This document shows positions 616-6,282 of a stretch of 6,357 nt of DNA, piece after piece. This DNA is from B21-G16 sp003644825 [NCBI: Candidatus Zhuqueibacterota bacterium]. GTDB taxonomy: Bacteria > SM23-31 > B21-G16. The notes beneath the pieces are model-generated. The model had not been told where the DNA came from. It worked only from the letters and a program-made list of their open reading frames with translations, and did not search any database. The first letter of the stretch is position 1, and each line of letters opens with the position of its first letter. The translations under genes were made by a program, and so were the position numbers. Location: the NCBI GenBank assembly GCA_003644825.1, contig QNDJ01000108.1, positions 1 through 6,357 of the forward strand. Reading direction: 5' to 3'.

Positions 616-1926
616 ATGAACAGATATATTAAAGAAATATTTATTTTCATATTTATTTTCTCTATATATTTTCTAATAAGTTGCTCAGAGAAGTATCCAT
701 CACCGGAGAGTAAATTTTCTAAAATAAAGGAATCAGGGTGTACTTACTGTCATCTGGATGCAGAGCTTCTTAAAAAAGTGGCTGAACCTCTTCCACCATC
801 AGAAGACGATGAAGGAGAAGGGTGAGGCGGTGCAGTGCCTCAGTTAGAGGCCTGGCAAATGGTTCTTGTTAAAGATAATTTTTTTAAAACGACTCACGGT
901 AAAATAGAATGTATTACCTGTCATAAAGGAGATAAGGATAAATATGAAAAAGATAAAGCCCATAAAAATATTATAGCATTCCCCAGCGAAGAACTTGAAG
1001 AATCCTGTGGCGGTTGTCATGGAGAAATAATGTCCAATTTTAAGACAGGTCTACATTTTACTTTATCCGGATATTTAAAAAGAATTGAAAATCGTTTAGG
1101 ATACAGCATAGCCGATAATCCTGATTTGATGGAACATTTTAACAATGAGTGTTATAAATGCCACGCAAGCTGTGGGCAGTGCCATATATCCAGACCAGCT
1201 TCCGTAAATGGAGGATTTTTAAAGGGGCATGTCTTTCAAAAAAAGCCAAGCCAATTGCTGAATTGTACTGCCTGTCATGGAAGTAGAGTCGGCAATGAAT
1301 ATCTTGGGCAGAATGAAGGATATAAAGCAGATGTTCACAGAATACCACTTGCAAAACAGTGTACAGATTGCCATACTGACAGGGAAATGCACAGCAGCGG
1401 GAATTTAGCTACACATAGGTATCAAGACAGGGATATGGTAAGATGTGAAAACTGTCATTTAAATGCTAAAGATAAAAATAAATACCATAAAGCACACTGG
1501 GGAAATTCCAGTAATCCCGAGTTATCCTGTCAGGTTTGTCATTCGCAACCCTATAAAAATTGTAATGCCTGCCATACCGGTGGAGAGGGAATTACAGGTT
1601 CCTCTTACTTCACTTTTAAGATAGCTAAAAATTATTTGAAATCTCCTGACCGAAATTACGATTATATTACAGTAAGACATATTCCCATAATTCAGGATAC
1701 CTATAAAAGCTGGGGAATTTCTGATTTACCAGATTTCTCATCAGAACCAACCTGGAAATATACAACCCCACATAATATTCAACGGTGGACACCCCAGACC
1801 GATACCACAGGAACTGAGGGCTCCTGTTTTGCAAAATGTCACAACTCAAATTATTATCTTACTGAAGAAGACCTTAAAAATTATGAAAAAGATGCAAATA
1901 AAAACATAATTATGAAAATAAAATGA
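616..1926 (+). CDS. Multiheme c-type cytochrome lipoprotein, probable selenoprotein (UGA at 823-825 read as Sec)
   Basis: Read through its single in-frame UGA, this is a 436-residue exported cytochrome. Residues 1-23 form a lipoprotein signal with lipobox LISC (Cys23). The next residue is Ser, not Asp, which would favour the outer membrane under the E. coli rule. The first heme site is CTYCH at 42-46. An acidic stretch (EDDEGEG) leads to position 70, the UGA, followed by GGAVPQLEAWQ. Nine further CxxCH sites start at residue 99, and a final CxxxCH site starts at 404, giving 11 possible hemes. AGGA at 605-608 lies 7 nt before the ATG. A standard caller would split this into a 69-residue fragment (616-825) and a GTG-started 363-residue fragment (835-1926). 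The latter lacks any signal peptide, so its hemes could not be matured alone. UGA also ends this gene at 1924-1926, and no other gene has an internal UGA. A recent nonsense mutation (GGA to TGA) or a sequence error is the alternative. No catalytic function can be assigned. Confidence 0.75.
823..825 (+). other. In-frame UGA, probable selenocysteine codon (residue 70)
   Basis: The UGA separates two pieces of one reading frame, giving the local peptide GEG-U-GGAVPQLEAW. Both sides look coding: heme sites and a lipoprotein signal upstream, heme sites immediately downstream. No Cys lies within the next 28 residues, so Sec would not form a CxxU-type redox pair locally. The stem-loop at 833-854 supplies the expected recoding signal. 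Whether the genome has selA, selB, selC and selD cannot be seen here. Confidence 0.7.
833..854 (+). promoter_or_regulatory. Bacterial SECIS-like stem-loop after the UGA
   Basis: CAG (833-835) pairs with CTG (852-854), T836 is bulged, GCCTC (837-841) pairs with GAGGC (847-851), and the loop is AGTTA (842-846). The loop begins 16 nt after the UGA and has G as its second base. Both match the general rule for bacterial SECIS elements: loop 16-37 nt from UGA, with a G among its first two bases. A bulged U below the apical stem and a GU in the loop are also SelB-recognition features of the E. coli fdhF element. The upper stem here is longer than in fdhF. The fold was found by eye, not by energy calculation. 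Confidence 0.65.
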
Positions 1927-1957: not shown

Positions 1958-3022
1958 ATGTTAAAGAAACTTGCTGTATATGTTGTTGTTCTATTGTTCG
2001 TAATACCATCAGTTTTTAATTGCGGTAAAGAGAGCCCAACAAAACCTGAAGGTGTTAATGAATTTGACCTTGTCGCCAGTGTAGGAGATGATTATTTCAC
2101 CAGTTATACTACCCCTTCGGGAAATCCTGTTAACACTACAATCTCCAATGTATTTACTATTTTAACTGATGGTGATGATTCAAATGACCCCTATATTATT
2201 GATTATCGTTCTGCATCCGATTTTGCATCCGGTCACATTAAAGGTGCTGTTAATATGTCCCTGGGTAGTTTAATAAGTAATATTGAAAATGGCAAAATAC
2301 CAAAAAATAAAACCATTTTGAATGTATGTTATACAGGGCAAACTGCAAGCCACGCAACGGCTGTTTTAAATATGCTTGGTTATGATGCACAAAATTTATT
2401 ATTCGGGATGTGTGGTGTTACTACTTCCAGTGAAGTGAATGGAACAGACAAATGGTCAAAACAAATTGCTACTGATGAATATGCAACTCAATTAGTTTCC
2501 ACACCTTCAACACCAACAAAGGTATATGATTTCCCTAAAATAAATACCGGTAAGAAAACCGCTGAAGAAATCATTAAAGCAAGATTTACTGCATATCTTA
2601 ATTCTAAGGGTGGAAGCTGGGCTAATATAACCGCTGACCAGGTTTTCGAAGACCCATCCAGTTATTTTATAATTAACTACTGGCCTGAAAGTGATTATAA
2701 CAACCCTGGACATATACCCGGTGCATATCAGTTCACTCCAAAATCTTCTCTGAGAAAAGACCAGAAACTAAAATACTTACCCACAGATAAAGAAATTGTT
2801 GTATATTGTTATTCAGGCCAGACATCGGCTCAGGTTGTCGCTTATCTTCAAATCCTTGGATATGATGCATATAGTTTACTTTTTGGTGTAAATGGTTTCG
2901 CTTATAATTCACTTTCTGCCCACAAATATGTGGCACCCGTTACTGATTATTCTTCAATTTTGACAACATCTAAACCTGAACTAAAACTGGTATTATTCAT
3001 TAAAGATATTTTTCAATTATAA
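1958..3022 (+). CDS. Tandem-rhodanese lipoprotein (ExtH-like)
   Basis: This 354-residue protein starts with a lipoprotein-type signal (MLKKLAVY..., hydrophobic 5-20) ending at Cys22. Its lipobox, VFNC, is unusual because of the Asn before Cys. Two rhodanese domains follow. Domain 1, about residues 65-155, has DYRSASDFASGHIKGAVN and active-site loop CYTGQTA with Cys124. Domain 2, about 215-310, has NYWPESDYNNPGHIPGAY and loop CYSGQTS with Cys284. Both catalytic Cys are kept, whereas in many tandem rhodaneses one domain is inactive. Each domain ends in a matching LGYDA..LLFG segment, showing an internal duplication. GGAGG at 1946-1950 sits 7 nt before the ATG, making it the best ribosome site in the operon. 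Rhodaneses move sulfane sulfur (or selenium) through a Cys persulfide. An extracytoplasmic lipid-anchored form beside cytochromes and a porin resembles ExtH of Geobacter ext clusters. Its substrate is unknown. Confidence 0.88.
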   Translation: MLKKLAVYVVVLLFVIPSVFNCGKESPTKPEGVNEFDLVASVGDDYFTSYTTPSGNPVNTTISNVFTILTDGDDSNDPYIIDYRSASDFASGHIKGAVNMSLGSLISNIENGKIPKNKTILNVCYTGQTASHATAVLNMLGYDAQNLLFGMCGVTTSSEVNGTDKWSKQIATDEYATQLVSTPSTPTKVYDFPKINTGKKTAEEIIKARFTAYLNSKGGSWANITADQVFEDPSSYFIINYWPESDYNNPGHIPGAYQFTPKSSLRKDQKLKYLPTDKEIVVYCYSGQTSAQVVAYLQILGYDAYSLLFGVNGFAYNSLSAHKYVAPVTDYSSILTTSKPELKLVLFIKDIFQL

Positions 3023-3035
3023 TACAGAGAAGTAG

Positions 3036-4238
3036 ATGAATAAAAAAATAGCAATTACAAATTCCGGGATTCTGATATTATTCTTTTTATGTATAAAACT
3101 TTATGCGCAGGGGATTGAATTTCACGGTAGAACTACAAATTCTATTTATACCTATGAAACTGATAAGCTCCATACCAGAGCTTATCAGTTTATAAGGTTT
3201 GAATTGAAACACAAAAGTTACAGAAACATTTGCTTGAATACATCTATGCGATTCCTAACAGATATGAATCAGAACCTGTCAAGCGACTTAAGATATAAAA
3301 TGTATGTTCTAAATCTGAGTCTTAAAAAACTCCTTAACAATCGGATGGATCTGGTAATAGGAAGACAGTTTTTACATCCTGGAACGGTCCTTGGAGGTCT
3401 TGATGGAGTTTTTACTAAATTTACTGTTTCAAAACATATATCCCTGAATCTGTATGGTGGGGTAGAATCCCATCTTCTCAGAAGTATGAAAATATATAAA
3501 ACGAATGATGCTCTTACTATCGGAGGTTTATTCCAGATACAAAAAATATTTTCTTCAAAACTTCAGCTGCTGTATTTACAGAAAAACAGTAATAATGGAG
3601 CATACTGGCAAATCGCTGGTATTAACTTTGAAAACAGGATTCTGCCCCATATTCAATTTACAATTCAATCCCATTATGACCTGATAAATTCCAGATTTCA
3701 TAGATTACTTTTTTCAGCAAAATATTACCTTGCCAGGAAAATGTTTTTTTCTCTTGGTTATAAAAGTCAGTACCCTCAGGTATATTCTAATTCATTTTTT
3801 ACCATTTTTGAGCCCGAGGCTTACAGACAATATAAACTTTCCTGCTCATATAAAATTCTTAAAGATTATTTTGTTAGCGGTCAATTTCAGTTTATCAAAT
3901 TTGACACCGAAACTGCCAACCGGCTTTTTTTAACGCTGTACAATAATAATGGCAGCATCGGGTGCATTCTTGAGAGTGGGTATGCAGGAAGTCAACTGGG
4001 AGTAATGTTCGATTATTTGTATGAATTAACTCCAGATTTGATTGCCTCTGTTAATGTAGATTATTCAAGATACAGGCTGGAAAAAGTATATCAATTTGAA
4101 AACCAGGTCTCTAACGCAGCACGTTTAACATATAAATTCAATAGAATGCTACAGTTCGTTCTGGAATATCAATGGCTTACAAATAGATATAAAAAACAGG
4201 ATTCCAGATTACTGAACCATATTCACTTTAGCTGGTAA
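3036..4238 (+). CDS. Porin-like outer-membrane beta-barrel protein (ExtI-like by context)
   Basis: This 400-residue protein has an N-terminal signal peptide (hydrophobic core 10-22, likely cut after LYA at residue 24). It then runs in alternating polar/hydrophobic stretches rich in Tyr, Phe, Ser and Arg, such as HISLNLYGGVES and LFSAKYYLARKMFFSLGYKS, as expected of transmembrane beta-strands. It ends in LNHIHFSW, with a terminal aromatic residue typical of Bam-assembled barrels. It has no CxxCH motif and contains few Cys. The start is 13 nt after the rhodanese stop, with a modest AGAGAAG ribosome site at 3026-3032. Placed between a rhodanese lipoprotein and multiheme cytochromes, it most likely forms the outer-membrane sheath of an electron conduit or an oxyanion channel, as proposed for ExtI. 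I assign it by architecture and context; I cannot confirm sequence homology to ExtI by eye. Its early coding part contains a perfect 14-bp hairpin (3157-3191). Confidence 0.75.
   Translation: MNKKIAITNSGILILFFLCIKLYAQGIEFHGRTTNSIYTYETDKLHTRAYQFIRFELKHKSYRNICLNTSMRFLTDMNQNLSSDLRYKMYVLNLSLKKLLNNRMDLVIGRQFLHPGTVLGGLDGVFTKFTVSKHISLNLYGGVESHLLRSMKIYKTNDALTIGGLFQIQKIFSSKLQLLYLQKNSNNGAYWQIAGINFENRILPHIQFTIQSHYDLINSRFHRLLFSAKYYLARKMFFSLGYKSQYPQVYSNSFFTIFEPEAYRQYKLSCSYKILKDYFVSGQFQFIKFDTETANRLFLTLYNNNGSIGCILESGYAGSQLGVMFDYLYELTPDLIASVNVDYSRYRLEKVYQFENQVSNAARLTYKFNRMLQFVLEYQWLTNRYKKQDSRLLNHIHFSW
3157..3191 (+). repeat. Perfect 14-bp inverted repeat inside the porin-like gene
   Basis: AAACTGATAAGCTC (3157-3170) and its exact complement GAGCTTATCAGTTT (3178-3191) flank a 7-nt loop, CATACCA. 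The hairpin sits about 120 nt into the gene and encodes residues in the stretch ETDKLHTRAYQF. Only a three-base T run follows, so it is a poor intrinsic terminator. It could act as an mRNA stability or pausing element, or be a chance coding palindrome. Confidence 0.7.
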
Positions 4239-4254
4239 TTAAAGGACTTATGGT

Positions 4255-5142
4255 ATGAAAAAGGGATTAAATGTAATATCAATTTTTATTCTGACAGCGG
4301 CAGTAATTGTGTTTTCAAAACCTCCAGGAACAGACCTAAAGTTTTCACATAAGTATCATATTGTTGAAGTAGAGGTTGAATGCAGCGACTGCCACAGTGC
4401 TGCTGATACAAGTTTGCTTTCCACTGATAATTTACTACCGGACCATAAAACCTGTAGCGAGTGCCATGAAATTGAAGATAACTGCAAGTTGTGCCATAAG
4501 AATGAAGAAACTGCTTCTGCTGTTCCAAGAATACAGAACTATATTGCTAATTTCCCTCACATAAAACACAAGAGTGATAAACTTTCCTGTGAAAAGTGCC
4601 ATTCCCGTATAAAAGAAAGTGAAAGTATTGCCGAAAAACATCTACCGAAAATGTCTGTTTGCACGGATTGCCATAATGATGTTTCCAGGACTGATTATTG
4701 TTTTACCTGTCATTCAAAAGGGGAGAACTTAACTCCTCCAGACCACGAACTTGCCTGGAAAAAGCAGCATGGAATCGCTTCTTATATGAGTTCTAATAAT
4801 TGTGCAGAGTGTCACACTAAAAATTTCTGTATTGACTGCCACAGAAAGGACAATCTGGACCATAAAACCCACCCTCTTAATTATGTAAATATTCACGGAA
4901 TATATGCCAAGGGTAATAAAGATAATTGTTATACCTGTCACGAGGAATTATCATTCTGTATTGACTGCCATAGACAGAAAATGGTAATGCCCCGAAACCA
5001 CGCATCAGCAAACTGGTCAAATAGAACTACAGGTGGTGCTCATGCCAGAGCTGCTAAGCTTGACCTGGACAGTTGTATAGGGTGTCATTCCGATATTAAT
5101 GGAAATCCAGTATGCATTGAATGTCATGAATCTAAGAAATAG
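4255..5142 (+). CDS. Periplasmic dodecaheme c-type cytochrome
   Basis: This 295-residue protein has a signal peptide (hydrophobic 7-20, no lipobox; likely cut near residue 21), so the mature protein should be soluble in the periplasm. It carries 12 CxxCH sites, from CSDCH at residue 43 to CIECH at 287, about one per 20 residues. Extra His residues suited as distal axial ligands occur throughout, including FSHKYH before the first heme, FPHIKHK and NIHGIYAK. This FSHKxH...CxxCH arrangement is typical of small-heme-spacing cytochromes of the c7/c3-like multiheme families. AAGGA at 4242-4246 lies 8 nt before the ATG, which is 16 nt after the barrel gene stop. The likely job is to pass electrons between inner-membrane quinol oxidases and the outer-membrane complex, or to serve as the inner half of the conduit. 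It is comparable in position to the multiheme ExtK/ExtL proteins. No enzyme motif is visible. Confidence 0.88.
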   Translation: MKKGLNVISIFILTAAVIVFSKPPGTDLKFSHKYHIVEVEVECSDCHSAADTSLLSTDNLLPDHKTCSECHEIEDNCKLCHKNEETASAVPRIQNYIANFPHIKHKSDKLSCEKCHSRIKESESIAEKHLPKMSVCTDCHNDVSRTDYCFTCHSKGENLTPPDHELAWKKQHGIASYMSSNNCAECHTKNFCIDCHRKDNLDHKTHPLNYVNIHGIYAKGNKDNCYTCHEELSFCIDCHRQKMVMPRNHASANWSNRTTGGAHARAAKLDLDSCIGCHSDINGNPVCIECHESKK

Positions 5143-5151
5143 AGGATTTAA

Positions 5152-5886
5152 ATGAAAACAGTTTACTTGACATTGGTTTTTTTAACAGTTAGTGGATTAG
5201 TTATACTCTGTTGTTCCAGAGATAAAGAACCTCTTGTAAGTTATACTCATCCCTCCAGCTGGATGAATGTTAAATCGGATGAATTTCACGGTAAAAAAGT
5301 TGTTGAAATTTCTTATAGCTCCTGCAAAAGCTGTCATGGCACTAGCTTAGATGGTGGTAAGAGCGGGGTTTCTTGCTTTAAATGTCATCAGATATACCCC
5401 CATTCTTCAAAATGGGTTGAGCTTGCAAGTGCTGGTTTTCACGGAAACTATATCAGAGGTGAGAACTGGAGCATGCAAGACTGTAAACCTTGCCATGGTA
5501 ATGATTACAGAGGTGGACAGAGTCAAAAATCCTGTTATGATTGTCATACTGGTAGTCAGGGACCCGAAACCTGTAACGTCTGTCACGGCAGTCAGGCAAA
5601 TGCTGCCCCACCTGAAGACCTAAATAATAGAACCTCAACTTCAGAAATAACCATCGGTGCTCATCAGATAATGATTTCAAATTTCGTTGCTACAAATGAA
5701 AACCTTACTATAAAAAATGTATGCAGTGTCTGTCATCAACTTCCCGGCTCTATTTCTCAGGCAGGGCATATAGATACAACACCTCACGCCGAAGTTTTAT
5801 CCAGCCTGGGATGGGACAGAAATAAACGAACTTGTGCAAATAGCTGCCACGGTGAAGAAGAGCATGTATGGAATAATTTTAAATAG
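5152..5886 (+). CDS. Heptaheme c-type cytochrome lipoprotein
   Basis: This 244-residue protein starts with a lipoprotein-like signal ending in a Cys pair (LVILCCS, Cys20/Cys21); which Cys is lipidated is unclear. Six CxxCH sites, the first at residue 58, are followed by a CxxxCH site (CANSCHG) at 228, giving seven possible hemes. The first half is an internal repeat of about 55 residues: FHG..., CKSCHGTSLDGGKSGVSCFKCH, then FHG..., CKPCHGNDYRGGQSQKSCYDCH. The shared pattern is CxxCHGxxxxGGxSxxSCxxCH, which is common in exported metal-reducer cytochromes. AGGA at 5143-5146 is 5 nt before the ATG and immediately follows the preceding stop codon, favouring translational coupling. The lipid anchor suggests an outer-membrane position, on either the periplasmic or the surface side. 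It may be the partner of the first-gene lipoprotein cytochrome across the barrel, but that is inference. Confidence 0.87.
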   Translation: MKTVYLTLVFLTVSGLVILCCSRDKEPLVSYTHPSSWMNVKSDEFHGKKVVEISYSSCKSCHGTSLDGGKSGVSCFKCHQIYPHSSKWVELASAGFHGNYIRGENWSMQDCKPCHGNDYRGGQSQKSCYDCHTGSQGPETCNVCHGSQANAAPPEDLNNRTSTSEITIGAHQIMISNFVATNENLTIKNVCSVCHQLPGSISQAGHIDTTPHAEVLSSLGWDRNKRTCANSCHGEEEHVWNNFK

Positions 5887-6259: not shown

Positions 6260-6282
6260 GCACCAGAATCGAATTCTGGTGC
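6260..6282. repeat. 10-bp palindrome, GCACCAGAAT-CGA-ATTCTGGTGC
   Basis: The arms 6260-6269 and 6273-6282 are exact reverse complements around CGA. The core ACCAGAAT...ATTCTGGT is identical to that of the palindrome at 32-56, differing in the central bases and outermost pairs. No T run follows on either strand, so terminator function is not supported here; a repeated extragenic palindrome is more likely. Confidence 0.65.

Follow-up and report, generated by a model that had tools for sequence, protein, structure and literature searches.

The DNA analysed here, called the window, is a stretch of 6,357 nucleotides that makes up the entire contig C108 of a 2.48 Mb assembly (493 contigs, 83.6% complete). 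On its forward strand an open reading frame at 616-825 ends with TGA and the next one in the ORF list, 835-1926, is in register with it, as an earlier note on this DNA had proposed when it placed both sides of the UGA at 823-825 in one frame. When this TGA is translated as selenocysteine (Sec), positions 616-1923 specify a protein of 436 amino acids with U at residue 70, in the context ...DDEGEGUGGAVPQLEAW..., followed by a TGA stop at 1924-1926. Judging from the reading frames, the translation and a motif count, the product of 616-1926 would be a lipoprotein c-type cytochrome bearing 11 heme sites and Sec70. A lipoprotein signal peptide can be read from the translation at 616-684, with the lipobox LISC and its Cys23 at 682-684. 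Heme site 1, CTYCH (residues 42-46; 739-753), lies upstream of the UGA and is invariant in the family alignment (A2), and ten more heme sites, nine CxxCH and one CxxxCH (residues 404-409), are found downstream of it at 910-1842. The earlier note had given the upstream piece a lipoprotein signal and one heme site and the downstream piece ten heme motifs without an export signal. This description holds, the count of ten requiring that CxxxCH be included, and no signal peptide is seen on the downstream piece despite its ten heme sites. The Sec cytochrome would be exported and anchored by a lipid.

All 23 cysteines of the window protein are used by the 11 heme sites and the lipobox, so that Sec is the only other chalcogenol in it. 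Several relatives have additional cysteines, some of them within CX4CH motifs. The AlphaFold model of the cytochrome is of moderate quality (71.3) with a pLDDT below 50 in the Sec loop, and a contact between Sec and heme is therefore not seen in the model. A Foldseek comparison of the model with the PDB returned two matches, neither with E <0.001, and an Rfam scan of the window gave no match.

The genes downstream (1958-5886) are on the same strand as the Sec cytochrome gene, with spacings of 9-31 nt. The nearest, at 1958-3022, encodes an exported protein, probably a lipoprotein, with two rhodanese domains (Pfam PF00581, 5e-24); Cys284 in its second domain is invariant in 10 aligned sequences, the window's included. 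The gene at 3036-4238 encodes a predicted outer-membrane beta-barrel with a signal helix and 22 strands (model pLDDT 74.8, pTM 0.62), for which the Foldseek matches are porins at E about 1e-8 with TM-scores of only 0.3-0.45. It is followed by an exported cytochrome with 12 CxxCH motifs at 4255-5142 (PF14522), probably periplasmic, and by a probable cytochrome lipoprotein at 5152-5886, in which six CxxCH and one CxxxCH were counted. Two palindromes with 89% identity (35-53 and 6262-6280) flank the gene run near both contig ends; they are perhaps terminators, or else a dispersed repeat that broke the assembly.

Known porin-cytochrome conduits include the Pcc, Mtr and ext types. The window locus resembles them in that a barrel gene, here a predicted one, and exported multiheme cytochromes are encoded together in one gene run. 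It differs from them in its predicted 22-strand barrel, which has no NCBIfam match at E<=1, and in its core of Sec cytochrome and rhodanese. Gene order and predicted structure suggest that the Sec cytochrome, the rhodanese, the barrel and the two further multiheme cytochromes probably constitute an outer-membrane electron conduit.

A protein search of 386 diverse genomes gave matches in 20 genomes at E<=1e-6 and none in the other 366. The matches in four of the 20 (L034-L037) are distant, weak cytochromes and were left out of all counts. In 14 of the remaining 16 genomes, the window's own included, an in-frame TGA stands at the aligned place, and the other two, G310 and G025, are without it. 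A 15-member profile was then matched by 16 of the 40 genomes in the class of genome G348 at E<=1e-20, and this class contributed, beyond G348 itself, 15 new UGA genes in 14 genomes together with one Cys gene. The total is 29 UGA genes in 28 genomes (the window's own included) and 12 numbered families, with TGA at the same aligned GU position. Identity to the window protein ranges from 33 to 52%, and certain members are close to one another. The Cys homologue (L047, genome G404) is a single uninterrupted reading frame with the codon TGT at the UGA position. In G310 the GxGUGG segment is missing and the homologue is a continuous reading frame; in G025 the copy also lacks the loop and its frame runs on, split over two contigs. 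Aligning homologues across the UGA, the check that the earlier note had put forward, thus finds U in 29 genes, Cys in one and a missing loop in two genomes, with no other residue among those compared.

Genome G397 has two Sec cytochrome genes that differ from each other (L044 and L056). The gene was not found in the five other sampled genomes of the window's own phylum, nor was a further member seen among six other genomes of the phylum of G319, and the distribution of the family is patchy. Genes present in more than one stretch were counted once: L039 with L029, L040 with L022, L107 with L023, L087 with L047, L088-L090 with L041, L046 and L053, and the genes in L071-L082 and L084 with those of L019-L030 and L032. 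The cut gene of L055 is included in the counts and is not in alignment A2. The sole match in a search of the own-genome contigs (L010) lacks the Sec loop; as an ordinary cytochrome it was left out.

A profile search found a rhodanese gene adjoining 26 of the 29 UGA genes and the Cys gene, and none beside either loop-less gene. As G310 and G025 belong to one family, the joint loss of loop and rhodanese was probably one event. Ten of the neighbours themselves went into the profile, and 17 of the 26 matches are genes outside it. The three misses (L048, L052 and L054) have a downstream contig end 1-127 nt away and lack a rhodanese on their upstream side. Scores are lowest for L075, with 60.6 bits, and for L077, with 49.7 bits for a match that lies at a contig end. 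Across the 20 larger stretches (L071-L090, 276 kb) every rhodanese match adjoins the cytochrome, the rhodanese lying downstream of most UGA genes and upstream in the G348 group. Matches to the barrel profile were found near 13 of the 29 UGA genes, several of them cut by the end of the stretch. The constant core is the Sec cytochrome with the rhodanese, and the barrel is found near fewer than half of the genes. Two of the rhodanese reading frames beside the Sec cytochrome (L072, 8547-10559, 671 aa; L081, 7799-10249, 817 aa) are about twice the usual length and perhaps carry extra domains. The run of G109 has HmcB-, HmcC- and NrfH-like proteins in its vicinity, as well as a multiheme protein that contains a cytochrome-b-like domain; none of them reaches the NCBIfam cut-off for the corresponding name, and they are likely quinol-side partners.

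Directly after the UGA the RNA can form the hairpin GCCUC-AGUUA-GAGGC (837-851), the SECIS-like stem-loop that the earlier note had described, with a 5-bp stem and a loop that starts 16 nt past the UGA. According to a 2026 review, bacterial SECIS elements have a stem of 4-16 bp and a loop of 3-9 nt with a G within the first two places, mostly 16-37 nt past the UGA (PMC13188914), and the window hairpin agrees with the constraints given there. The loop of the best hairpin is at the window's distance, give or take a base or two, in 25 of the 29 UGA genes and elsewhere in the remaining four (L021, L026, L044 and L046). When the UGA genes are set in a common register of six pairs (L030 and L032 after a manual shift of one base), pairs form in 142 of 174 cells, and sliding one side by 1-4 leaves no more than 97. 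Compared with synonymous recoding, the 29 UGA genes have a mean z of -1.19, with p<0.05 in 7 of them; the mean is -0.22 for 200 control windows taken from these genes, and the Cys gene has -0.02. The selD gene of the same genome also has a hairpin after its UGA, with the loop at the same distance as in the window gene. The hairpin is well supported at the level of the family and modestly so in individual genes.

Of the Sec genes that the earlier note had named for the source genome, selA, selB and selD were found and a tRNA-Sec was not. On contig C279 a selA of 479.8 bits precedes a selB of 349 bits that is truncated where the contig ends, and selD (379.9 bits; L013, contig C14) has its own UGA within an AGUAAK motif. 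All 110 tRNA-Sec candidates of the genome were scored and none was over the cut-off in this 83.6% complete assembly; the best of them are ordinary Arg, Asn and His tRNAs. The selD gene, itself a selenoprotein gene, comes after a gene whose translation resembles a cysteine desulfurase, perhaps a selenium supplier.

Across the family, 35 genomes were searched for selB, and the 26 in which it was over the cut-off all carry UGA genes. The nine in which it was not found are the three non-UGA genomes (G025, G310, G404), the UGA genomes G329 and G395, and four added class members without the family. A tRNA-Sec was over the cut-off in 22 of 31 genomes, all with UGA genes (22 of 28) and including G329 and G395, with at most 96 candidates scored per genome; ordinary tRNAs may account for some of the weaker calls, such as those at 47-50 bits in G036. 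The six UGA genomes in which no tRNA-Sec was found, the own one included, have selB (for the others again with at most 96 candidates scored per genome). At least one of selB and tRNA-Sec was therefore found in each of the 28 UGA genomes, and neither was found in the three that have no UGA gene. As a plain table this corresponds to 1 in 4,495, although the genomes are not independent by descent and one family accounts for two of the non-UGA three. Together with the 29 TGA genes and the one TGT (Cys) gene, this machinery supports the decoding of UGA 823-825, in its GEGUGG loop, as Sec at residue 70, much as the earlier note had supposed.

Three readings that would remove the novelty or the Sec itself can be weighed against these data. 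One reading takes the UGA for an ordinary stop that separates two operon proteins, or for the mark of a sequencing error or broken gene, and it is highly improbable. The downstream piece does have its own GTG start at 835, and the same doubt was printed for GSU2937/2936 in PMC1914089; yet TGA occupies the same residue in 29 genes, the Cys homologue and a loop-less homologue are each one reading frame, the downstream piece combines ten heme sites with the lack of a signal peptide, and selB or tRNA-Sec separates every UGA genome from the three non-UGA ones. A changed code, with UGA read as Gly or Trp throughout the genome, would fit the glycine residues on either side of U70 in this glycine-rich loop. 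It is nonetheless close to negligible, since the same gene stops at TGA 1924-1926, the genome has selA, selB and selD, and the homologue from the genome where selB was not found has Cys rather than Gly. Membership in the known ExtKL/MccSep selenocytochrome family is suggested by the shared character of a multiheme Sec cytochrome near rhodanese and porin genes (PMC5877670), and is equally hard to credit as the ordinary stop: the NF040886 model matches neither the window protein (E<=1) nor the 15 members (0.001), and the window protein has one heme before Sec and ten after it, against five followed by UGA in ExtKL and a late U325 in MccSep.

The comparison with the ExtKL type bears on the mention in the earlier note of suggested selenoprotein multiheme cytochromes near Geobacter extK/extL. 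The kind of protein, a multiheme c-type selenocytochrome, is indeed the same, and the ExtKL cluster also has a rhodanese (ExtH) and a porin (ExtI); the family is a different one, with no match to NF040886 (cut-off 250 bits) and another layout. In ExtKL (GSU2937-2936) the UGA comes after five heme motifs (PMC1914089), and two further papers describe its homologues as pentaheme or 7-8-heme cytochromes (PMC11976967, PMC10553843). MccSep (PDB 9wt8, 9wt9) has U325 within GHxIPDGUPT in the later part of the protein, scores only 18.3 bits with the family profile and from its layout appears to be of the ExtKL type. Sec thus stands between heme sites 1 and 2 of 11 in the window protein and after five hemes in ExtKL and MccSep.

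Four loci with ExtM over the cut-off (L064-L067) have genes placed and sized like extH, extI and extJ ahead of extM, and no ExtKL gene was seen between these ext-like genes; of their ExtH-like proteins the profile confirmed a single one, that of L067, as a rhodanese. Orthology of the window's rhodanese and barrel with ExtH and ExtI was considered and set aside, the rhodanese profile matching one of the four ext clusters (47 bits, weak) and the barrel profile none. As the profiles of the locus catch one ExtH-like and no ExtI-like protein, the ext cluster and the window locus look like parallel assemblies of similar components. Another cytochrome of the own genome (contig C239, 77-913) matches the ExtKL model weakly (45.8 bits) and has no in-frame stop.

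The best solved relative of the family profile is an octaheme cytochrome c (1sp3, 43.8 bits), which we take to be the octaheme tetrathionate reductase OTR. The same structure is the best row of a structural second look, with Z 6.4 and an rmsd of 5.4 over 232 aligned residues, where a Z below 8 may reflect a common arrangement. The window protein differs from OTR in its 11 heme sites, its Sec loop and its rhodanese partner, and its score with TIGR04315, the model of that reductase family, is 17.8 bits where the cut-off is 375. The table of the 2026 review (PMC13188914) includes a Sec form of TIGR04315 that carries this annotation in GenBank. The likeness to 1sp3 is suggestive of chalcogen chemistry, at a level below what would show a common function.

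The comparison of homologues supports a decoding of UGA 823-825 as Sec by SelB, directed by the hairpin just downstream. The cytochrome may act outside the cell as a reductase of sulfur or selenium compounds. In the scheme proposed here, the rhodanese would accept sulfane sulfur of the polysulfide, thiosulfate or tetrathionate type, or else selenium in reduced form, would hold it as a persulfide and would pass the chalcogen on to the Sec selenolate. Electrons from the heme wire would then split the Se-S(e) bond, with release of sulfide or selenide; the direction of electron flow through the conduit is one that we infer. That the rhodanese loads the selenolate is suggested by the co-occurrence of the Sec/Cys loop with the rhodanese and by the absence of both at the loop-less genes, which amount to about one event. 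On its own, this transfer to the selenolate followed by heme reduction is a possible mechanism offered with reserve.

Two other functions compete with it, both of them conceivable though on balance unlikely. Sec may be non-catalytic, acting as a heme ligand or as a redox switch that gates the flow of electrons, for example to metal oxides. Its place in a loop of Gly and acidic residues that separates heme 1 from heme 2, with a pLDDT below 50 in the model, would suit such a role, as would the lack of a resolving Cys in the window protein; what this leaves unexplained is the rhodanese beside every Sec or Cys copy with a readable flank and its absence beside the loop-less ones. Alternatively, the system may serve selenite or tellurite reduction, as proposed for the ext cluster, rather than sulfur reduction. 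PMC5877670 reports the same kinds of partners (the rhodanese ExtH, the porin ExtI and the selenocytochrome ExtKL) in a cluster of G. sulfurreducens and describes an impaired reduction of selenite and tellurite on loss of ExtI, and against this the partners are not detectable orthologues, since the rhodanese profile finds one of four ext clusters (47 bits) and the barrel profile finds none. Taken as a whole, a selenoprotein at 616-1926 is very probably the best explanation, the operon-like run being probably a conduit and the action of the rhodanese on Sec the least certain part. The narrower proposal, an undescribed selenoenzyme family of Sec-dependent sulfane-sulfur or selenium reductases, wired through the outer membrane and built independently of ExtKL, is put forward tentatively.

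The window protein reaches no NCBIfam cut-off, no Sec-family model was found in the 15 members and no prior report of the family appeared among the matches listed for the open-licence PMC literature, which together point to a novel type among the known multiheme selenocytochromes. Neither PMC1242214 nor PMC12013277 mentions cytochromes, and no paper on MccSep was found in the open-licence PMC literature. Few selenocytochromes are on record, and none has a settled function, among the matches listed for that same literature. Gene finders that stop at UGA would yield a short lipoprotein and a cytochrome without an export signal. The family provides a second selenocytochrome architecture, with 12 families, natural Cys and loop-less forms and a near-constant rhodanese partner, and it is through this partner that the question of why selenium is placed in a heme wire becomes a testable one of chalcogen transfer. 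If the proposal is true, the combination of Sec, a rhodanese and a heme wire would be a recurrent design for chalcogen respiration or detoxification outside the cytoplasm.
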